From positions 1 through 38,030 of IMG/VR virus record IMGVR_UViG_3300036790_000214: a DNA stretch of 38,030 nt, one strand, 5' to 3'. Each line of letters starts with the position of its first letter. Within the stretch, counting starts at the first letter, position 1. Below, piece after piece: positions 4,841-12,049 of this stretch. The position numbers and the translations under genes are program-made. Origin of the DNA: a virus. The notes beneath the pieces are model-generated. The model was not told the DNA's origin and did not search any database. It was given only the letters and a program-made list of their open reading frames with translations.

Positions 4841-5004
4841 ACGAACTGAAGTTCTCGGACGTGAGCCATGCATGGATCGATTACAACTTTGCCAGTCGTT
4901 CCTTCAAGAAATGGCCCGCTAATCTTGAGCTTGAACAAAACGCCGAGAAGACCTATGCAACGTATCTGATGATGGAAGTTCTTTACTGGCGGAAACCGCT
5001 ATGA
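4837..5004 (+). CDS. Small hypothetical protein (55 aa)
   Basis: Linked by ATGA overlaps to both neighbours. It is aromatic-rich and probably alpha-helical, with no cysteine pairs and no membrane segment. Unknown function. Confidence 0.55.
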   Translation: MNELKFSDVSHAWIDYNFASRSFKKWPANLELEQNAEKTYATYLMMEVLYWRKPL

Positions 5005-5138
5005 GAACTCCGGAAGAATGGAAACCCACTAATCGGAGGAATAGAGCCATGCCCCTGCACGAACGCATTGTTCTTGGCATAGTATTGGTGCTTTTTATCG
5101 TCGATGCCGCCTATCACGTCGGGATGTGGATTAAATGA
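5001..5138 (+). CDS. Small single-span membrane protein
   Basis: Two starts are possible: ATG 5001, coupled to the previous stop (45 aa), and ATG 5049, with a CGGAGGA site about eight bases upstream (29 aa). The shared part contains one clear transmembrane helix (IVLGIVLVLFIVDAAYHVG). The short form is little more than that helix, and its ribosome site makes it the likelier product. Confidence 0.6.
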   Translation: MRTPEEWKPTNRRNRAMPLHERIVLGIVLVLFIVDAAYHVGMWIK

Positions 5139-5386
5139 AGATTACACAAAGCGCAGGATACCATCGTAATTTTATGTGCGATATGGACAATTGCGAACGC
5201 CATTTCTGTAAGAAACATCGGCTGCTCTGGGCAGACTGTGAAACCCTGAAGCGAGGAACGCAAGGCGACCGGGACGTGGTGAATGGAACAGCCGATTATT
5301 ATGAACTTGGAGATTGCCCGCTTTGCGAGCACGATGATGAAAACAAAAAGTTCGAAGAAGAGATGCGCCGCCATGCCGCCTTTTAA
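5135..5386 (+). CDS. Small Cys/His-rich zinc-binding protein
   Basis: An 83-residue protein with CDMDNCERHFCKKH near residues 15-28 and CPLCEH near 61-66. Spaced cysteine and histidine pairs suggest one or two zinc sites. The rest is acidic. It overlaps its upstream neighbour by ATGA and the next gene by 14 bases. Likely a small regulatory or anti-host protein of the early operon, but this is inference. Confidence 0.7.
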   Translation: MKITQSAGYHRNFMCDMDNCERHFCKKHRLLWADCETLKRGTQGDRDVVNGTADYYELGDCPLCEHDDENKKFEEEMRRHAAF

Positions 5387-5495
5387 ATCTTTAGACCTTC
5401 TTCTGGACGAAGTTATCCAAGACACTATCGACCAGTGGCTCGAAGAGAAAGACCGCGAGGCGGAACAGCTTGAATTAATCGACGATGCAGAATAA
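5373..5495 (+). CDS. Small acidic helical protein (40 aa)
   Basis: Starts at ATG 5373 inside the previous gene. The product is strongly acidic (EEKDREAEQLELIDDAE at its end) and predicted helical. Unknown function. Confidence 0.5.
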   Translation: MPPFKSLDLLLDEVIQDTIDQWLEEKDREAEQLELIDDAE

Positions 5496-5598
5496 ACATA
5501 AATGTTGGACTTGTAAATGCGTGATTGAAGATGAAGATATCGAAGTACAAGACGATGAAGGTCGTCGTTACCACGATGTATGTGTCCCTAATTTTTAA
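5485..5598 (+). CDS. Small zinc-ribbon-like protein (37 aa)
   Basis: ATG 5485 overlaps the end of the previous gene by 11 bases. CWTCKC near the N-terminus and YHDVC near the C-terminus give a C-x2-C...H-x2-C pattern typical of a mini zinc ribbon. The middle is acidic. Function unknown. Confidence 0.55.
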   Translation: MQNKHKCWTCKCVIEDEDIEVQDDEGRRYHDVCVPNF

Positions 5599-5639
5599 AC
5601 CAAAAGACGCGAGTCTATAAAATCGAAGGAGAATAAAAA

Positions 5640-6515
5640 ATGGTACTTCGTGGAATTAAACCGGAAGTCGTCATACCAAGCAAACCGAAAATAATGTTGT
5701 CGGGGAAACCGGGGACAGGGAAGAGTTTCTTCGCTCTGAACGCTCCGGCTCCGTACCTTTTGGATACTGAAGGTGGGGCTACGCGGGAACAATACGTTGG
5801 GAAACTCCTGAAGCAAAGAGGAAGTTATCTGGGAATCGAACAAGGTTCGCAGGACTTCTCAGAGGTCATTAATCAGGTTCGTGAACTTGCGACGACAAAG
5901 CACCCGTACAAAACGCTTATCATCGACTCATTCTCGAAGCTCTATAACATCGAAGCCGCTGCCGCCGAGGAACGTGGTGGATCTGACTTCGGGAAGGACA
6001 AGCGAGAAGCCGACAAGCCCACGCGCAAGCTGTTGAACTGGCTGGGACGGCTGGATATGACGGTTATTCTCGTCTGCCATCAGAAAGACAAATGGATACG
6101 TCAGGGCGGTCAATTGATTATGGAAGGGAGTACATTCGATGGCTACAAAAAACTGGATTACGAGCTGGATCTCTGGCTCGAAACCAAGCTTGTCGGAACA
6201 TCACGCTACGCGACAATCGTTAAAAGCCGCATTGAGGGATTTCCAGTGGGTACAGACATCGATCTGGATTTTGCTTCGTTTGAGAAGCTCTATGGCAAAG
6301 CGGTTGTTGAGGCACCCGTCAAGCCAATCGTTCTCGCCGGAGAATCTCAAATTGCTGAGATCAAGCGTCTTGTCGACCTCCTCAAAGTGCCAGAAGAAGA
6401 GTTCTCGAAATGGCTCACAAAAGCGCAAGCCGTAGAAGTGGATGATCTCAGTGCTGATAATGCTGTAAAAATGCTTGATTTTCTTAACAAGAAAGTTAAA
6501 GGAGAAATTAAATGA
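5640..6515 (+). CDS. Sak4-like phage recombinase ATPase
   Basis: A 291-residue RecA-core ATPase of the phage nucleotide-binding (AAA_24) type, known from Sak4 annealing proteins. Walker A is GKPGTGKS (22-29), followed by the DTEGG strand (42-46). Walker B ends LIIDSFSK with D96, and VILVCHQ near 142-148 is the sensor strand. Proteins of this family are single-strand annealing recombinases that often act with a phage SSB. The next gene overlaps by four bases and is SSB-like, which supports this role in phage recombination and replication. AAGGAG precedes the ATG. Confidence 0.88.
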   Translation: MVLRGIKPEVVIPSKPKIMLSGKPGTGKSFFALNAPAPYLLDTEGGATREQYVGKLLKQRGSYLGIEQGSQDFSEVINQVRELATTKHPYKTLIIDSFSKLYNIEAAAAEERGGSDFGKDKREADKPTRKLLNWLGRLDMTVILVCHQKDKWIRQGGQLIMEGSTFDGYKKLDYELDLWLETKLVGTSRYATIVKSRIEGFPVGTDIDLDFASFEKLYGKAVVEAPVKPIVLAGESQIAEIKRLVDLLKVPEEEFSKWLTKAQAVEVDDLSADNAVKMLDFLNKKVKGEIK

Positions 6516-6886
6516 GCTACGAAACCACAGATACCAACAGCCAGTTTCACGATGACATACCAGATGGAAAATATGATTTCACGATTGTTAAAGTGGAACG
6601 AAAAGAAATCAAAGGGAATAAAGCCTACGAATGGGTTCTGCAATATTCTGACGGTGAAGGCAAAGTCTTGACGTGGCCTAATCAGGTCGGACCATTGCTT
6701 GTGATCTTAGGAGCGAAAGAAGACCCGGCAAAGAAGGGCCATTATCTCTGGGAAACTGAAACGATGGTCGGTAAAACATTCCGCGCCACGATCACGCATG
6801 ACGTCGACAAGAAGAACCCGAGCAAGGTCTATCAAAACATGAAAGACTTCAAAGCGTCAGATAAAGCCGAAGTCACGCCTTTCTAA
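6512..6886 (+). CDS. Putative single-stranded DNA-binding protein (DUF669-like)
   Basis: A 124-residue protein with the pattern IPDGKYDFTIVKVERKEIKGNKAYEW followed by beta strands and an acidic/aromatic tail ending VTPF, as in phage DUF669-type proteins that substitute for SSB. It overlaps the Sak4-like gene (ATGA) and the next gene (TAATG). The partner role for Sak4 is known in other phages, and the assignment here rests on context and pattern rather than a strict motif. Confidence 0.7.
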   Translation: MSYETTDTNSQFHDDIPDGKYDFTIVKVERKEIKGNKAYEWVLQYSDGEGKVLTWPNQVGPLLVILGAKEDPAKKGHYLWETETMVGKTFRATITHDVDKKNPSKVYQNMKDFKASDKAEVTPF

Positions 6887-7356
6887 TGGCAAACGATCTC
6901 ACATTGGAAGAACTCCGTAACGAAGGATTTATCCCGTGGGTTGTCGAGCGACGCCTGGGATCGTTCGTGACGACGGATTTCTTCCTTTGTGGGGACGTTT
7001 TAGGGCATTGGCCTAATTGTGATCGTCGGGACAGAATCGTGAACGGTTGCGGGACCGACGTTCAGATCCACATCGACAAATATCTTAAAGGCTATACCGT
7101 GGAGCGCATGCGGAAGAACAAAGACACTGGACGATCAGAAATTGTTCTGAAGGAATTCCCACCGAATCCGTATCTGGGAACGTTGCTCCTGAAATACGAT
7201 TTCTACATCTACAGTTTCGTGCTGCGGAAATTCAAAAAAGAGGATGGAAAAAGGTCCACGCAGGACCGTTATCAATGCCGGAAATGGAGAGCTATTCTTT
7301 CGCCGGAAGGAAGAATATCGTTTACCCGTGAACTATCAAAAGATGACGAAGGATAA
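6886..7356 (+). CDS. Hypothetical protein, possible PD-(D/E)XK-like nuclease
   Basis: 156 residues, with its start overlapping the previous stop (TAATG). The order LRNEGFIPWVVE, then a DFFLCGD segment, then GTDVQIHIDKY, and later basic strands with a W-R-A-I end resembles the layout of small phage VRR-type/PD-(D/E)XK endonucleases (acid, then an E/Q-x-K-like strand). Cysteine pairs (CG, C-D-R-R) occur in an insertion between these parts. The position next to Sak4 and SSB also fits a recombination nuclease. The catalytic lysine is not obvious, so the assignment is weak. Confidence 0.45.
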   Translation: MANDLTLEELRNEGFIPWVVERRLGSFVTTDFFLCGDVLGHWPNCDRRDRIVNGCGTDVQIHIDKYLKGYTVERMRKNKDTGRSEIVLKEFPPNPYLGTLLLKYDFYIYSFVLRKFKKEDGKRSTQDRYQCRKWRAILSPEGRISFTRELSKDDEG

Positions 7357-7495
7357 GCTTATAGCGCACTGTGAAGCCTACGCCGATGCTTTGCACGATC
7401 TGGCGGCAAAGCTTCAGAAGGCCCAGCTCGATAACTACAATTATCAGAATCGGTTGTCTGCACTAGACCGCATCCGGAAATTCTTCCGCGCATGA
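7343..7495 (+). CDS. Small coiled-coil protein (50 aa)
   Basis: Start ATG 7343 lies inside the end of the previous gene. Heptad-like hydrophobics run through the whole sequence (IAHCEAYADALHDLAAKLQ), suggesting a short coiled coil. No family recognised. Confidence 0.55.
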   Translation: MTKDKLIAHCEAYADALHDLAAKLQKAQLDNYNYQNRLSALDRIRKFFRA

Positions 7496-7599
7496 AAATC
7501 CTGTTTGATCTGGTGTTGGGTCCGGTTCTTGTGGTGCTGATTGCGGTGTCGTGGCTTGGAACCTGTTTGTCATGGAAAAACTTAAAAGGAGACTTATGA
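7492..7599 (+). CDS. Small single-span membrane protein (35 aa)
   Basis: ATGA overlap with the previous gene, and the stop overlaps the next ATG. Residues 4-27 form one hydrophobic helix (LVLGPVLVVLIAVSWLG). An internal AAAAGGAG near its end serves as ribosome site for the next gene. Confidence 0.55.
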   Translation: MKILFDLVLGPVLVVLIAVSWLGTCLSWKNLKGDL

Positions 7600-7925
7600 A
7601 AACTCAGTTAATCGAAAAATTAGTTGAACAATTACTTAACGAAAAAGAACCGAAATGGAATGGTGACGATCTACCGTTTATCGTTGGAAAAGCCTATCTG
7701 ATCCGAACCGTTACCTATCACATGCTCGGAGTCCTTGAACGAGTATCTGGCGCATTTCTAGTATTAAAAGAGGCCTCATGGGTAGCCGATTCAGGGAAAT
7801 TTTCAACTGCTATTGCAAAAGGGGAATTGTCTGAAATCGAATATGTGGGCGACGCTATTGTTTCCATGAACGCTATCGTCGATGCTTTTCCTTGGATTGC
7901 TAAAGTTCCTAGGGAAACAAAATGA
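7596..7925 (+). CDS. Conserved-looking hypothetical protein
   Basis: A 109-residue, mostly acidic protein reading GKAYLIRTVTYHMLGVLERVSGAFLVLKEASWVADSGKF. This resembles a family of small phage proteins predicted to adopt a beta-rich fold, function unknown. The ATG at 7596 follows AAAAGGAG; earlier in-frame starts are less well placed. TGA overlaps the next ATG. Confidence 0.65.
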   Translation: MKTQLIEKLVEQLLNEKEPKWNGDDLPFIVGKAYLIRTVTYHMLGVLERVSGAFLVLKEASWVADSGKFSTAIAKGELSEIEYVGDAIVSMNAIVDAFPWIAKVPRETK

Positions 7926-8110
7926 CTCCCGTCATTGGCAATATAAATACGTTATGGAGCAGGAGCAGGAGCGGGAGCTGGAGCGGGAGCTGGAGCTGGA
8001 GCAGGAGCGGGAGCAGGAGCGGGAGCTGGAGCGGGAGCTGGAGCTGGAGCAGGAGCGGGAGCAGGAGCTGGAGCTGGAGCAGGAGCGGGAGCAGGAGCGG
8101 GAGCAATTAA
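7922..8110 (+). CDS. Ser-X dipeptide repeat protein (one reading of the GGAGCN array)
   Basis: The ATG overlaps the previous stop (ATGA), as is usual in this operon. After 12 ordinary residues the sequence is an alternation of Ser with Arg, Gly or Trp, 25 times. The frame is open across the repeat and ends just after it. Coupling supports translation, but the absence of C in the variable repeat base favours another frame (see 7954-8115). Function unknown. Confidence 0.4.
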   Translation: MTPVIGNINTLWSRSRSGSWSGSWSWSRSGSRSGSWSGSWSWSRSGSRSWSWSRSGSRSGSN

Positions 8111-8115
8111 CTTAG
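7954..8115 (+). CDS. Glu-X repeat protein, predicted single alpha-helix (alternative reading)
   Basis: Starts at ATG 7954 just before the repeat. The product is an alternation of Glu with Gln, Arg or Leu for about 50 residues, a charged composition typical of long stable helices. In this frame the variable base selects CAG, CGG or CTG. The fourth choice, C, would give proline and never occurs in 25 units, which suggests selection on this frame. There is no good Shine-Dalgarno, so translation is uncertain. Confidence 0.4.
   Translation: MEQEQERELERELELEQEREQERELERELELEQEREQELELEQEREQEREQLT
7956..8105. repeat. 25 tandem copies of the hexamer GGAGCN
   Basis: Exactly 150 bases in 25 unbroken units. 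Only the sixth base varies and it is A, G or T, never C. All forward frames are open. Higher-order units, such as a block repeated from 7956-8003 to 8004-8051, suggest growth by duplication. Confidence 0.95.
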
Positions 8116-8122
8116 AACTTCC

Positions 8123-8335
8123 ATGCGTATTCTTCTTAAGCCCACTGCATTACGTCCATGTGATTACGATAAAAAGTGTCGCGCTTGTGGGTATTGGCCT
8201 CTTTATCTGGTTGACGGTCGCTGTCCTTGTGGCGGCGATCTATTCCGCCCTAAGACGACGAAAAAAAGACTTCGCCCAGCATCTCAAAGAAAAGTATGGG
8301 GTAAAGCCAAACGAAGACGACGAGCCTTGGGATGA
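8123..8335 (+). CDS. Zinc-ribbon-like basic protein, overlapping the next gene in another frame
   Basis: 70 residues. Five cysteines in the order C-x5-C-x2-C-x11-C-x-C (residues 13-36, with CRACGYWP and CPCGGD) look like a zinc ribbon. The C-terminal half is highly basic (KTTKKRLRP, KRRRR). It shares 176 bases with the membrane-protein gene at 8160-8378 in a different frame. No clear Shine-Dalgarno. Both frames look protein-like. Confidence 0.5.
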   Translation: MRILLKPTALRPCDYDKKCRACGYWPLYLVDGRCPCGGDLFRPKTTKKRLRPASQRKVWGKAKRRRRALG

Positions 8336-8378
8336 AACCTATGGAGCTGATGATAAGAAAGATAAAGAGGACAAGTGA
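8160..8378 (+). CDS. Small membrane protein with acidic/basic tail
   Basis: 72 residues from a GTG start. One transmembrane helix (VALVGIGLFIWLTVAVLVAAIY, residues 7-28) is followed by RRRKK and a highly charged cytoplasmic tail ending DKKDKEDK. The stop overlaps the GTG of the methyltransferase gene by four bases, which supports translation. It overlaps a zinc-ribbon-like frame for 176 bases. Confidence 0.6.
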   Translation: MITIKSVALVGIGLFIWLTVAVLVAAIYSALRRRKKDFAQHLKEKYGVKPNEDDEPWDETYGADDKKDKEDK

Positions 8379-9268
8379 TTGGCCTGGATCTATTTAGCGG
8401 AATCGGAGGACTCACAAAAGCCTTGGCAGACTACGTCCATCCCATCGCCTATTGTGAAAACGACCGATACGCTCAAGCTGTGCTACTGTCCAGGATGCGT
8501 ACGGGTGACATTCCCTGCGCTCCTATATGGGATGACATCACAACATTGCAAGGTTCAATGTGTCCACCAGTTGACATCATCTACGGGGGTTTCCCCTGCC
8601 AAGATATTAGCGTTGCAGGCCGCGGAGCGGGGCTGGACGGAAAGCGAAGCGGATTATTTTTCGAGATCATCAGGCTCGTTGGCGAGTTACGACCGCGATT
8701 CGTGTTCTTGGAGAACGTATCAGCGATTACTGTTCGAGGATCAGAGCGAGTTACTGGCGAACTTTGCAAGCTCGGGTATGACTGTCGATGGGGTATTTTA
8801 TCCGCTCAAGACGTGGGAGCGAATCACCGTCGCGAACGATGGTGGCTATTGGCCCACACCAACAGTGAATATGGTCAGCGGCGGCGCCAATCACGAAAGT
8901 CCGATGGTAAAGCAGGGACAACACGGAATAAATCTGAAGGGTGCGGTAATGAAGTGGCCCACTCCAAGAGCAGGGAACCCAGGCTCACGCCCCAATGGGA
9001 AGGGGGGAAAGATTCTATCCGAAGAAGTGAAAAAATATCCGACACCGTGCGCGAGAGATTGGAAAGACAACGGAAAAAGCCCTTCGGAACTGGCAAGAAA
9101 CTCAGAGACGTTGGCGACAACGGTTGGTGGACAATTGAACCCAACATGGGTCGAGTGGCTAATGGGGTACCCTTCCGAGTGGACCGTCTTAGAGGACTGG
9201 GCAATAGCGTGGTTCCGGCTCAAGCACGAGAAGCCTTTGAAAGATTAATGGGATTAAAAGGAGGATGA
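8375..9268 (+). CDS. dcm: DNA (cytosine-5)-methyltransferase
   Basis: A 297-residue C5-cytosine methyltransferase. Motif I is DLFSGIGG (residues 5-12), motif IV GGFPCQD with catalytic Cys75, motif VI FLENV (111-115) and motif VIII around NHRRERWW (150-157). The final RVDRLRGLGNSVVP is motif X. The segment between motifs VIII and X (about 160-250), where target recognition lies, is rich in Arg, Ser and Gly with repeated A-H/D-T/S units. The GTG start overlaps the previous stop. It probably methylates phage DNA against host restriction. A long second open frame runs through it (8379-9248). Confidence 0.92.
   Translation: MIGLDLFSGIGGLTKALADYVHPIAYCENDRYAQAVLLSRMRTGDIPCAPIWDDITTLQGSMCPPVDIIYGGFPCQDISVAGRGAGLDGKRSGLFFEIIRLVGELRPRFVFLENVSAITVRGSERVTGELCKLGYDCRWGILSAQDVGANHRRERWWLLAHTNSEYGQRRRQSRKSDGKAGTTRNKSEGCGNEVAHSKSREPRLTPQWEGGKDSIRRSEKISDTVRERLERQRKKPFGTGKKLRDVGDNGWWTIEPNMGRVANGVPFRVDRLRGLGNSVVPAQAREAFERLMGLKGG
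8379..9248 (+). CDS. Overlapping +1-frame protein inside the methyltransferase gene
   Basis: An open frame of 289 codons almost coextensive with the methyltransferase but shifted by +1. It reads like a phage protein family I recall from methyltransferase loci: SPAKI near residue 90, SLASYDRDSCSWRTYQRLLFED, FASSGMTVDG, repeated W/Y-P-T-P units (WPTPT, WPTPR, YPTPC-ARDWKD) and LNPTWVEWLMGYPSEWT at the end. In other phages that family may itself be this alternate frame. There is no good start codon (TTG at 8379; the first ATG is about 50 codons in). Expression is unproven. Confidence 0.45.
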   Translation: MAWIYLAESEDSQKPWQTTSIPSPIVKTTDTLKLCYCPGCVRVTFPALLYGMTSQHCKVQCVHQLTSSTGVSPAKILALQAAERGWTESEADYFSRSSGSLASYDRDSCSWRTYQRLLFEDQSELLANFASSGMTVDGVFYPLKTWERITVANDGGYWPTPTVNMVSGGANHESPMVKQGQHGINLKGAVMKWPTPRAGNPGSRPNGKGGKILSEEVKKYPTPCARDWKDNGKSPSELARNSETLATTVGGQLNPTWVEWLMGYPSEWTVLEDWAIAWFRLKHEKPLKD

Positions 9269-9270
9269 CG

Positions 9271-9570
9271 ATGAAAAATAAATTCTGGCTGCTCTCCGTA
9301 TTCGTTCCGACGCTGGCATGGGCTTGCCCCAAAGGAAGCACGGGATGGGAAGGCACCTGCGCTTATGACAATATCAGACCGTTGGAATCTTCAACGAATA
9401 TTGCCACTGTTTGGGTGAGTGCCGAGAAACCGCCGAAGACCACGACTGGCGAATGGCAAACGGATAAGATCAGAATCGTGACGCTATCGCCTTTATCGAC
9501 GGTAGATGACGAGATTTCGGCGGCTAAAAAGTGGGATGCCGCACATGGCGAACCACCAAAGGGAGAATAA
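9271..9570 (+). CDS. Secreted small protein with a Sec signal peptide
   Basis: 99 residues. AAAGGAGG ends six bases before ATG 9271, which is preferred to ATG 9265. Residues 1-18 (MKNKFWLLSVFVPTLAWA) form a signal peptide with an AWA cleavage site. CPKG...GTC just after it could form a disulphide. The signal resembles that of the fibre gene at 14952-17732 (WLLVFLPTFAW). Function unknown; it would act in the periplasm or envelope. Confidence 0.7.
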   Translation: MKNKFWLLSVFVPTLAWACPKGSTGWEGTCAYDNIRPLESSTNIATVWVSAEKPPKTTTGEWQTDKIRIVTLSPLSTVDDEISAAKKWDAAHGEPPKGE

Positions 9571-10007
9571 TGGAAAGATGGCGAAAGTCTTTGAATGAAG
9601 GGCACATTCTTACTTCCGAAATGGATGGGCAAGTACTTTATTATATTAACTCCATTGAATCTGAGCGCGATAAGCTGAAGGCGGAACTAGAACGCGTAAG
9701 CGGAAAGACGCAATTCTGCATTCTCTGTGAACAGACGGCAAAGGAAAACGACAAACTGAAGATGGAACTGGAACACATCAGATTCATAACTGGACGAAGC
9801 GGATGTGAAATTGTTGATCGCCTTGAATCTCTGGACCGCTGGCGCGAGATGGCGGGGAAGCTGGCGCGAAGTCTTGAAAGAATATCTTTTTCCAAACCGG
9901 ATAGATTATCTCATCAACTTGATGTTTTGATAATTGAACGGGCGGCTAAATTAGCGAAACAAGCCTTTGATATTTACGCCGCCATGGAAAAAGGGGAAAC
10001 AAAATAG
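9570..10007 (+). CDS. Coiled-coil hypothetical protein
   Basis: 145 residues, ATG overlapping the previous stop (TAATG). Residues 25-100 have long Glu/Lys/Leu heptads interrupted by a CILC cysteine pair. No family recognised. It ends two bases upstream of the permuted tRNA 3' half. Confidence 0.65.
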   Translation: MERWRKSLNEGHILTSEMDGQVLYYINSIESERDKLKAELERVSGKTQFCILCEQTAKENDKLKMELEHIRFITGRSGCEIVDRLESLDRWREMAGKLARSLERISFSKPDRLSHQLDVLIIERAAKLAKQAFDIYAAMEKGETK

Positions 10008-10009
10008 AT

Positions 10010-10150
10010 TTGTGGGTATAGAGGTCGTGGGTTCAAATCCCACTCCCTGCCAGACTCGAAGCATGGGAGCATAGGCATATGTTCTCGTTCAAGAGTCTAA
10101 CCGTGGACGCACGGGATGCGGGGATGGAGCAGCCGGGTAGCTCGCTATAC
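10010..10150 (+). tRNA. Circularly permuted tRNA-His (anticodon GTG)
   Basis: The 3' half comes first. Anticodon loop and GTG anticodon are at 10010-10016 (GTG 10012-10014), stem strand TATAG 10017-10021, variable loop AGGTC, T-arm GTGGG-TTCAAAT-CCCAC 10027-10043, acceptor strand TCCCTGC 10044-10050 and discriminator C 10051. After a 66-base linker the 5' half follows: acceptor GCGGGGA 10118-10124, T8 G9, D-arm GAGC/GCTC 10127-10143, G26 and CTATA 10145-10149. All joints fit: a 7-bp acceptor (one G-U), a 5-bp anticodon stem, the T8-A14, G15-C48, G18-G19 and G26-A44 contacts, and a mature length of 74. C73 and GTG are hallmarks of tRNA-His, but G-1 is not encoded (T at 10117) and CCA is absent. 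The linker forms hairpins at 10052-10098 and 10101-10114. The enzyme that rejoins it is unknown. Confidence 0.8.
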
Positions 10151-10154
10151 CCAC

Positions 10155-10283
10155 TTCGTTTTCGGGACGCTCAGCCAAAGACGGTTCACGAGATAGCGTG
10201 GTAAATGTAATCCGATACGGTCGAGTCACATCGAAAGCTCCTGAGAACAGGGCCGCGTCCCGATTAATTTCGAGGAGGATTGA
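10155..10283 (+). ncRNA. Structured RNA segment downstream of the permuted tRNA
   Basis: Between the tRNA 5' half and the next gene, CGGGACGC (10163-10170) and GCGTCCCG (10255-10262) form a perfect 8-bp closing stem around 84 bases that contain CACG/CGTG and CCG/CGG hairpins. No T-run follows, so it is not an ordinary terminator, and I recognise no riboswitch or ribozyme class. The segment ends with GAGGAGG, the ribosome site of the next gene. It could be part of a processing element for the tRNA. Confidence 0.45.
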
Positions 10284-10487
10284 ATGAAACGTGGTAAATT
10301 CACAACCGCATCCCAAAGAGAACATTGTCGTCAAGCATTCCGCCTCATTAGTTTTTGTGCAGGCTCAATCTATACGGGAGACTATAAACAGGCTTACGAA
10401 GAAGCAATAGAAGCCCAGAAGCATATGACTATTGTGTTTGGAATTATTGATGAAAATGAAATGTTTCCAAAGGAGCCTGAGCGATGA
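10284..10487 (+). CDS. Small hypothetical protein (67 aa)
   Basis: ATG 10284 follows GAGGAGG. The 67-residue helical protein has no recognised motif. The stop overlaps the ATG of the next gene (ATGA). It restarts translation after the tRNA region. Confidence 0.65.
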   Translation: MKRGKFTTASQREHCRQAFRLISFCAGSIYTGDYKQAYEEAIEAQKHMTIVFGIIDENEMFPKEPER

Positions 10488-10654
10488 GCGAAAAGAAAAA
10501 CGCGACTGACAGACTTTACGATGCCGTCATCGCCTACGTGGAAGAAAAAGGCGGAAAAATTCTCGTTATCGGCGGGATAGAAATACAGCAATTCCCAGAG
10601 GACCTTAGAAATAATTACAGGATCGCCATTCGGTTCACAGGTAAAAAGCCATGA
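10484..10654 (+). CDS. Small hypothetical protein (56 aa)
   Basis: 56 residues, coupled by ATGA overlaps on both sides. The pattern EEKGGKILVIGGIEIQQFPEDLRNNYRIAIRFTGKKP suggests a small beta-alpha fold. Function unknown. Confidence 0.55.
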   Translation: MSEKKNATDRLYDAVIAYVEEKGGKILVIGGIEIQQFPEDLRNNYRIAIRFTGKKP

Positions 10655-10881
10655 ACGAAAACGTGTTTTCCGACGAGGATTTGATGAAATTGGAAGAGGC
10701 GCTAAAGGACTATCCGGGTTGGGCTACCGAACAACCTCCGATGTATTGGCGTATGCTCCTCGTCCGGCTCGACGCAGCGGAGAAATTTATATGGGGTCAT
10801 AAAGACCCTATACTGCACAATAAGTTATTGGAAGCATGGCGTCAAGCCTCCGGCAAGACCGCCGAAAGCGATGGAAAATGA
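10651..10881 (+). CDS. Small hypothetical protein (76 aa)
   Basis: Acidic, helical 76-residue protein coupled to its neighbours by four-base overlaps. No recognised family. Confidence 0.6.
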   Translation: MNENVFSDEDLMKLEEALKDYPGWATEQPPMYWRMLLVRLDAAEKFIWGHKDPILHNKLLEAWRQASGKTAESDGK

Positions 10882-11189
10882 ATATCGGAGACTGCGACAG
10901 CAAACATTGCTGGGACGAATTTAAGAACCATCATTCCGATGCGAATTGTTGTTGGTGTCATTGCGACCGACGGAGTCATCCCGTCATGACCGCCCCTAAG
11001 CCGTCCTCATCGTTTCCGGAGTGGGTTGATGATTTTGAAAATTATCAGGATCAAGTTGTCAAACTGCAAGAAGCCCTCGCCATCGCGTGGGAAGCGCTGG
11101 AGCGAGTAAGAACGCAGCCTCACGATAATATACGTGGATACGCCTACGAAGCCCTTCGCCGCATCCGAGAGATAGGGGGGACGAAATGA
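10878..11189 (+). CDS. Hypothetical protein with Cys-rich N-terminus
   Basis: 103 residues from ATG 10878. The N-terminal 35 residues include CDSKHC and CCWCHCDRRSH, a cluster of six cysteines and histidines that probably binds zinc. The rest is a helical segment. Coupled to both neighbours. Confidence 0.6.
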   Translation: MNIGDCDSKHCWDEFKNHHSDANCCWCHCDRRSHPVMTAPKPSSSFPEWVDDFENYQDQVVKLQEALAIAWEALERVRTQPHDNIRGYAYEALRRIREIGGTK

Positions 11190-11320
11190 AAAAATTCCTG
11201 TGTTGGATTGGATGGCATGGTAGCAGAACTTATCTATCCCATGATGGAGCTAGTTCTCATGCCCGATGTAATTGGTGCGGATACGAAGGAATGATCGATT
11301 TTCAAGGGAATCTATTCTAA
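11186..11320 (+). CDS. Small Cys-pair protein (44 aa)
   Basis: Coupled start (ATGA) and TAATG overlap with the next gene. Contains HARCNWCGYEG, a single C-x2-CG knuckle, after an aromatic N-terminus (MKKFLCWIGWHG). Likely a mini zinc-knuckle. Confidence 0.5.
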   Translation: MKKFLCWIGWHGSRTYLSHDGASSHARCNWCGYEGMIDFQGNLF

Positions 11321-11682
11321 TGACCAACCCCAAAGCGAAGACAGCCCAAGAATACGCTGAGGATATAATGCGGACCTGTCGGTGGTTGTTTACCGACGAA
11401 GGAAAAGGACTTTTCCGAGAGATTATTGATGCCCTCTACTCCTACGCCGACTCTGTAGCCGAGAAGCGAGTGCTGTTTGAAAGGACAGAGGCCGGAATGA
11501 CGATTAACTGGAAAGACGGATACGACAAAGGTTTCCGCGCCGGACAGGAGCGAATGCGCGAGCGGGCGGCTAAACAAATCGAAACTCTTGCCGCAGAATC
11601 TTTAATGGCTGGACCGATGAATTGTAGTTCCCTGATTTTTGAAGCAAAACAAATCCGTTCCTTAGAGGTCGAAGAGAAATGA
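11320..11682 (+). CDS. Hypothetical helical protein (120 aa)
   Basis: ATG 11320 overlaps the previous stop. Residues 60-95 carry TINWKDGYDKGFRAGQERMRERAAK, a motif common in small phage proteins of unknown role. The rest is helical. An internal open frame upstream of the ATG is not needed. Confidence 0.65.
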   Translation: MTNPKAKTAQEYAEDIMRTCRWLFTDEGKGLFREIIDALYSYADSVAEKRVLFERTEAGMTINWKDGYDKGFRAGQERMRERAAKQIETLAAESLMAGPMNCSSLIFEAKQIRSLEVEEK

Positions 11683-11795
11683 GAAATCCGCTTTACATCT
11701 GCGCGGAGTGCGGAAGAGACTTCGATGGGCTGTGGTGCAGCCACAAAGATAATTTATTCGTTCGTTTCTTTGCTTTGATTCTAAAAATAATATGA
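11679..11795 (+). CDS. Mini zinc-knuckle membrane protein (38 aa)
   Basis: Starts at ATG 11679 (ATGA overlap). CAECGRDF and WCSHKD form a possible zinc site, followed by a hydrophobic C-terminal helix (FVRFFALILKII). The stop overlaps the next ATG. Confidence 0.5.
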   Translation: MRNPLYICAECGRDFDGLWCSHKDNLFVRFFALILKII

Positions 11796-12049
11796 CCGAT
11801 AAACCTTTGACGGCGATGGAGAGAGCCTCTAAATTCGGTCTTAATGAAGCGATAACGTCATTGATCGCCGCCGAGATTGAAAAGGCGGTGGAAGAGGCAT
11901 ATTTGGATGGGATGGAACATCCGAGCATTTCCGTTTGGAACCTAGCCAAAAAAGAAGCCTACGAAGAATGCGCGAAGATTATTTTGGAAACAGAAGACCC
12001 TATGGATGCAATCGGGCGAATTCGCGCCAAAGCAAAGGAACTGAAATGA
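11792..12049 (+). CDS. Small acidic helical protein (85 aa)
   Basis: 85 residues, coupled to both neighbours. Almost entirely helical and rich in Glu, Ala and Lys. No motif recognised. Confidence 0.6.
   Translation: MTDKPLTAMERASKFGLNEAITSLIAAEIEKAVEEAYLDGMEHPSISVWNLAKKEAYEECAKIILETEDPMDAIGRIRAKAKELK

Follow-up and report, generated by a model that had tools for sequence, protein, structure and literature searches.

What is encoded by a +1 reading frame that stays open for 289 codons inside a DNA methyltransferase gene? The question is raised by a 38,030-base IMG/VR virus record (IMGVR_UViG_3300036790_000214), analysed over its full length and called the window here, in which a frame-0 open reading frame (ORF) at 8375-9268 (297 codons, GTG start) encloses a second ORF in the +1 frame at 8379-9248 (289 codons, TTG start). 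The window was assigned to a tailed phage because of matches to a terminase large subunit, a head-tail adaptor, a Sak4-like annealing protein and a primase/helicase. A sequence-only reading had judged that the +1 frame looked coding, and both the two ORFs and an openness beyond chance bore this out. We consider it highly likely that the locus specifies one C5 DNA methyltransferase made as two polypeptides, alpha and beta, from the same DNA. Alpha (frame 0) would be the S-adenosylmethionine-binding catalytic domain, with motifs I-VIII, closed by motif X, and beta (+1 frame, start 4 bases later) would be the small domain, consisting of motif IX and a target-recognition region with PTP repeats. 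The motif names are those of M.HhaI-type enzymes.

The features of the locus are the following.

8375-9268, + strand: predicted alpha subunit, m5C methyltransferase with motifs I-VIII and X, frame 0, GTG start (PF00145, AlphaFold2 (AF2) model, M.HhaI superposition)
8379-9248, + strand: predicted beta subunit, +1 protein with target-recognition region and motif IX, TTG start (phrog_1008, open frame in relatives, start geometry)
8364-8381, + strand: proposed shared initiation region, AAAGAGGA (sequence; putative ribosome-binding role)
8375-8377, + strand: alpha start GTG, inside the shared initiation region
8376-8378, + strand: TGA of the preceding gene, inside the shared initiation region
8379-8381, + strand: beta start TTG, 4 nt past the alpha start, inside the shared initiation region
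8384-8869, + strand: alpha catalytic domain, motifs I-VIII, frame 0 (hhalign to ordinary methyltransferases)
8850-8861, + strand: beta PTP unit 1 (WPTP), over alpha AHT (sequence)
8955-8966, + strand: beta PTP unit 2 (WPTP), over alpha AHS (sequence)
9036-9047, + strand: beta PTP unit 3 (YPTP), over alpha SDT (sequence)
9126-9185, + strand: candidate enzyme motif IX in beta (GGQLNPTWVEWLMGYPSEWT), frame 0 reading GRVANGVPFRVD (conservation; single-chain enzymes)
9194-9217, + strand: motif X in alpha, GLGNSVVP, frame 0 (invariant residues)

Distribution of the enzyme motifs between the two frames

Alpha matched PF00145 (6e-36) over profile positions 4-178 of 324 only, with motifs I-VIII present, and its residues 3-166 aligned with ordinary methyltransferases (hhalign E 2e-29). 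In the AF2 model the large catalytic domain and the motif X helix were confident and residues 191-224 and 231-263 fell below 50 in predicted local distance difference test score (pLDDT); superposition on M.HhaI gave Z 22.3 and a root-mean-square deviation of 2.8, with 195 of 327 residues aligned. Motif X (GLGNSVVP) was present in alpha as in a whole enzyme, with L275, G276, N277 and V279 invariant in 73 sequences. Relatives were collected as 80 viral loci retrieved with the frame-0 protein as query, so that the +1 frame was not the bait. The motif IX pattern occurred in frame 0 in 0/80 of them and in the +1 frame in 53/80. The small domain of C5 enzymes is described in PMC3404938 and PMC5944983 as housing the target-recognition domain (TRD) and motif IX. 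This small domain is missing from the alpha model, and alpha, unlike a whole C5 enzyme, has neither motif IX nor a TRD in its chain.

The +1 protein matched the phrog_1008 profile 'DNA methyltransferase' (1.1e-25). In its motif IX, P255, E259, M262, G263 and T269 were nearly invariant among 118 sequences, and the putative identity of this motif rests on its pattern and on single-chain relatives. Upstream of it, beta carries PTP units whose median spacing is 34 residues, and most loci have between 1 and 5 of them: among 262 loci, 6 had none, 42 had one, 89 two, 71 three, 37 four, 15 five, and six and eight units were found once each. The number varies among phages, and may be linked to recognition. 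In Arthrobacter phage JaNo, an ORF from 238 (513 codons, annotated hypothetical) was of beta type, with eight PTP units and motifs IX and X.

Three DNA repeats had been proposed to encode units of both frames, and they were recovered at 8850 (+1 WPTPTVNMVS, frame 0 LAHTNSEYGQ), 8955 (WPTPRAGNPG, VAHSKSREPR) and 9036 (YPTPCARDWK, ISDTVRERLE). The A-H/D-T/S units of frame 0 are the PTP units of beta, read one base earlier. Likewise, the +1 stretch LNPTWVEWLMGYP does overlie the methyltransferase's own frame-0 EPNMGRVANGVP (GRVANGVP), as had been read from the sequence. In most of 53 loci, frame 0 reads V-G-R-V-A/V-N/D/H/Y-G-V/I/L at this overlap; by our own reasoning, this variation stays inside what the codons of W-V-E-W-L-M-G-Y permit. 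Here it is the +1 frame that leads.

The same parts were found in a single ORF in Propionibacterium phage PFR2, Gordonia phage MelBins (gp5) and Mycobacterium phage Ramsey (gp69), whose enzymes carry motifs I-VIII, LLPTP-type repeats, motif IX (RLxxxFxEWMM) and motif X. These enzymes share the catalytic-domain clade of the window and have its PTP repeats and motif IX, but unite every part in a single frame and a single chain; when they were aligned with the window, its +1 protein accounted for motif IX and the PTP repeats, and everything else came from frame 0. In these three single-chain genes, the +1 stretch over motifs VI-VIII resembles the middle part of beta, and could be either an echo of frame 0 or what remains of an earlier overlap.

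Motif positions were then surveyed at 264 loci, with some contigs counted twice through retrieval by both queries; motif IX lay in the +1 frame at 257 of them, and at 2 it stood in the same frame. Three of the 264 were unmatched through motif VIII and two had no motif IX match (L255 and L256) and were read by eye, the latter being MelBins, which fell below the motif IX threshold. Among the 257 loci, motif X lay in the alpha ORF in 245; in 9, alpha ends just past motif VIII and motif X is then in the beta frame, and in 2 motif X was unplaced. Motif X therefore keeps to one half or the other nearly always.

Openness and constraint of the +1 frame

Synonymous codons of the window gene were permuted with the frame-0 protein and the codon usage preserved. 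The permuted genes had a mean of 9.2 +1 stops over 8379-9245, and the frame was stop-free in 0/20,000; the +2 frame of the window itself has 19 stops. Among the 80 viral loci, the +1 frame was without a stop between motifs VIII and X in 75, and the +2 frame in none. The other five (L110, L113, L125, L143 and L144) had 1-3 +1 stops in this region.

For the aligned analysis a non-redundant set of 76 rows was used, consisting of the 80 loci and the window minus 5 near-copies, L144 among them, so that four of the five stop-bearing loci belong to the set; these showed zero stops once the region was ended at aligned residue 262. Over aligned residues 53-262, the 76 relatives had 0 +1 stops against a null mean of 372 (minimum 333 in 300 shuffles), and 867 +2 stops against a null of 855; over residues 1-52 they had 10 +1 stops, with 142 expected. 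Since the 76 rows are related and not independent, z-scores are inflated (the z of the +2 frame was also positive), and our reading relies instead on how many stops were counted, on the +2 frame and on the controls. In the converse test, which held the +1 protein, 245 frame-0 stops were expected in the linker (residues 160-250) and 0 were observed, an openness that follows from how the loci were picked. As the alpha-holding and the beta-holding tests were both depleted in stops, both frames are held open.

As controls, all PF00145 genes were sought in 32 bacterial genomes having a beta-type locus; 30 loci were taken, of which 29 were usable on both strands (L284 was dropped, its motif VIII being unmatched). 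In the interval from motif VIII to motif X, the 22 control methyltransferases without a +1 motif IX had 116 +1 stops where 114.7 were expected, and each of them had at least one, so that ordinary enzymes show no openness effect. The 7 with a +1 motif IX had 0 stops against 12.5 expected.

Identity at fourfold-degenerate frame-0 sites gave a similar gradient along the gene: observed and expected values were 0.364 and 0.284 at residues 1-52, 0.575 and 0.284 in the linker (residues 159-250), and 0.879 and 0.293 in the motif IX stretch (residues 251-272). Ordinary enzymes gave 0.274 observed and 0.267 expected; they are more divergent than the alpha set, which makes this contrast partly one of divergence, and the rise along the gene from 1.28 to 3.00 is the better measure. 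A per-column test for start-codon excess was informative at few columns, such as aligned residue 135 (ATG in 64/76, null 38.1).

The sequence-only reading had offered a conserved dual-coded pair as one of two alternatives, and had named relatives combining an intact methyltransferase with +1 stops as evidence that would count against it; over residues 53-262 the +1 frame was stop-free in 76/76, and together with the fourfold identity at motif IX this supports such a pair. The +1 frame is thus very probably a real gene, as judged by comparison of sequences.

Start codons and competing explanations

A beta start adjoining the alpha start could be assigned in 71/76 loci. It lay at +7 nt in 33 and at +4 nt in 21 (54/71 with a 4- or 7-nt start pair), 2 nt before alpha in 7 and elsewhere in 10, and the codon was ATG in 66, GTG in 4 and TTG in 1, the window. 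The beta N-terminus M.W.Y lay over the conserved start of frame-0 homology in 55 of the 76 loci and upstream of it in 10, and the pattern was absent in 11. In the 10 upstream cases an alternative frame-0 start was often found further up, with no conserved frame-0 motif there, and the DNA may still be double-coding. Among 87 loci of more remote relationship, from bacteria, phages and one archaeal contig, start codons 1-10 nt apart were found in 35, with 4 nt in 31, and beta often began with MSWLFS, MSYIF or MAWLY. We propose that, from neighbouring start codons behind a single ribosome-binding region, both alpha and beta would be made, and that the two would assemble into an active enzyme methylating phage or host DNA. 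Beta translation, alpha-beta assembly, target recognition by beta and its role in catalysis are what we infer from the sequences. In the window, the alpha start overlaps the stop of the preceding gene (GTGA), which suggests that alpha may be translationally coupled to that gene.

Programmed ribosomal frameshifting from frame 0 into the +1 frame past motif VIII would yield a fused chain of motifs I-VIII, TRD and motif IX, with no separate beta. In the nine loci where alpha ends right past motif VIII and motif X lies in beta, a single shift would give a complete enzyme. In the window, however, motif X is back in frame 0 and two opposite shifts would be required. Furthermore, a beta start codon and an M.W.Y-type N-terminus beside the alpha start recur in relatives and would be superfluous for frameshifting; the recurring neighbouring start pairs therefore favour two initiations behind one ribosome-binding region, and, judging by motif positions and start codons, we regard frameshifting as very unlikely.

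Another explanation, which the sequence-only reading had itself raised, is that the +1 ORF is an untranslated shadow frame, its likeness among phages being merely an echo of frame-0 motifs and codon habits. Part of this stood. Frame 0 partly determines the +1 sequence over motifs IV-VIII, and a profile of beta accordingly matches the +1 frame of single-chain enzymes there, as well as some genome places with internal stops; public annotators choose one frame or the other. As the whole explanation it failed, since shuffles retaining the frame-0 protein and codon usage never yield an open +1 frame and ordinary enzymes have no comparable +1 openness. The PTP and motif IX sequence also stands in-frame in single-chain enzymes, and at motif IX it is frame 0 that varies (A/V, N/D/H/Y, V/I/L) within the limits of the +1 codons. 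An untranslated +1 frame is even less credible to us than frameshifting.

Least probable of all is that the methyltransferase is overprinted by a protein with some unrelated function, such as regulation or anti-restriction, for although residues 1-150 of beta have no single-chain counterpart and no fold match was obtained, the C-terminal part of beta can be aligned to the TRD and to motif IX in single-chain methyltransferases, alpha is without exactly the part that beta supplies, and in the 264 loci, a set retrieved largely with both proteins, motif IX was never found away from a methyltransferase wherever it could be placed.

Several observations weigh against a two-polypeptide enzyme. Beta had no Pfam or PDB sequence match, only weak ribosomal-protein matches; its AF2 model alone had a mean pLDDT of 59 and a predicted template modelling score (pTM) of 0.26, and a search of the PDB with this model gave no match below E 7. 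The comparison of the beta profile with ordinary enzymes was not significant (probability 0.4%, E 0.14), and the sole stretch aligned was motif IX. The profile is also partly a shadow of the alpha motifs, as it matches the +1 frames of single-chain enzymes. The TTG start of the window is the weakest of the set. In L200 (2311-3276), motif X is in frame 0 but in an ORF apart from motifs I-VIII; here the alpha frame, but not that of beta, is interrupted in the stretch from motif VIII to motif X. Finally, a match was found in 13/198 genomes of the Pseudomonas family group, and several of these 13 were shadow matches only, with internal stops.

Residues 1-150 of beta, for which single-chain enzymes have no equivalent, overlie motifs I-VIII and partly echo them, yet almost every relative keeps them open. 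A zinc-binding N-terminus was considered for beta, as the window has CYCPGC, and was rejected: the majority consensus of the beta alignment (A3) contains no cysteine, and Pfam matches were only single and weak.

Known split enzymes, spread and meaning

By described motif layout, not by sequence, the closest precedent appears to be M.EcoHK31I. Its small-subunit gene reportedly lies in another frame within the large-subunit gene (Lee et al. 1995), and in the window 8379-9248 is likewise nested in 8375-9268, in the +1 frame. In PMC3404938, M.EcoHK31I (YGGCCR) is described as a two-polypeptide m5C enzyme with motifs I-VIII and X in the large subunit and motif IX in the small polypeptide, the same layout as in the window; it is termed a naturally split methyltransferase in PMC3439449. 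The two differ in that the predicted TRD of M.EcoHK31I is placed in its large subunit (PMC3404938), whereas the TRD region of the window is in beta, and in that beta covers nearly the whole of alpha, starts 4 nt later and has this arrangement across a large clade. M.AquI (CYCGRG) is also described there as an m5C enzyme split, like that of the window, into a catalytic part and a motif IX part (PMC3404938); its motif X, however, sits with motif IX in the small subunit, whereas that of the window is in alpha. Nine loci have an AquI-like motif layout: Heather, BT1, L210, L252, PhluffyCoco, Spouty, JangDynasty, Peaches and JaNo. PHROG 1008 was matched by 118/118 aligned beta proteins, but its profile also spans the motif X segment (positions 276-318), as in splits with motif X in the beta frame.

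The sequence-only reading had pointed to the same protein pattern in other phages, and a tblastn search with the +1 protein did return 23 phage records, mostly annotated as methyltransferase or hypothetical protein. At 11 public phage loci, the annotation covers alpha alone in 6, beta alone in 3 (Mwe-JY08, SOVA965 and Mwe-Yong1318-1), both in 1 (Heather) and none in 1; as beta is the annotated product in some phages, the +1 protein is present in databases, in agreement with that reading. In bacterial and archaeal genome contigs, 351/546 pattern matches encode beta relatives, and of the best 80, 79 overlap a methyltransferase in the +1 frame; in the remaining one (L189) a single ORF contains it together with the initial portion of the catalytic domain, apparently by a frame break. 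When plasmids were searched with the C-terminal portion of beta, 2 records matched. On a contig titled Candidatus Poseidoniaceae archaeon (L245), an overlapping pair with 4-nt start spacing was seen, its beta starting MAWLYV.

In a tree of 71 catalytic domains, chosen by us from those retrieved, overlapping, AquI-like and single-chain forms made up one clade (support 100/99), with 16 ordinary enzymes standing apart. The single-chain forms were nested inside the clade; within this sampling, therefore, the overlap is most simply the older state and fusion the younger. A wider reading is that dual coding is obligate throughout the clade, whose members come from phages, bacteria and at least one archaeal contig, with both proteins wholly selected and the overlap ancestral to the single-chain forms; for us this is evenly balanced between true and false. 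The same even balance holds for its further part, that the halves are of ~250-350 residues each with starts 4-7 bases apart.

Just upstream of the methyltransferase gene, a 12-base unit, GGAGCGGGAGCA, is repeated in tandem (12.4 copies, window 7956-8105) within an ORF at 7882-8115. The array codes for a Glu/Gln/Arg-rich repeat, and a second forward frame and one reverse frame are open there too. Two small overlapping ORFs follow on the same strand as the methyltransferase, at 8123-8335 and 8160-8378; the latter has an N-terminal hydrophobic stretch and ends in a TGA that overlaps the start of the methyltransferase gene. An Rfam search of 5000-12000 and a tRNA search gave no matches.

Most likely, the enzyme would serve to shield phage DNA from restriction. 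What is new here is the near-complete overlap with neighbouring starts, the TRD in the hidden subunit and the breadth across a large clade; literature titles and abstract openings, with subscription journals and REBASE outside reach, contained no account of such an overlap as widespread in phages. Methyltransferases annotated in frame 0 only would miss the recognition subunit, and attempts to clone such genes or to predict their specificity would therefore fail for a reason that is known. The loci would form a large, old set of same-strand dual-coding genes with both products in one enzyme, and the split, overlapping and single-chain forms in one tree would be a natural series on the origin and resolution of overlapping genes. 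If dual coding is indeed obligate, many database methyltransferases of this type that pass for 'monomeric' would need a hidden partner to be complete, and the DNA of the catalytic domain would also code for a new protein domain, the N-terminal half of beta.
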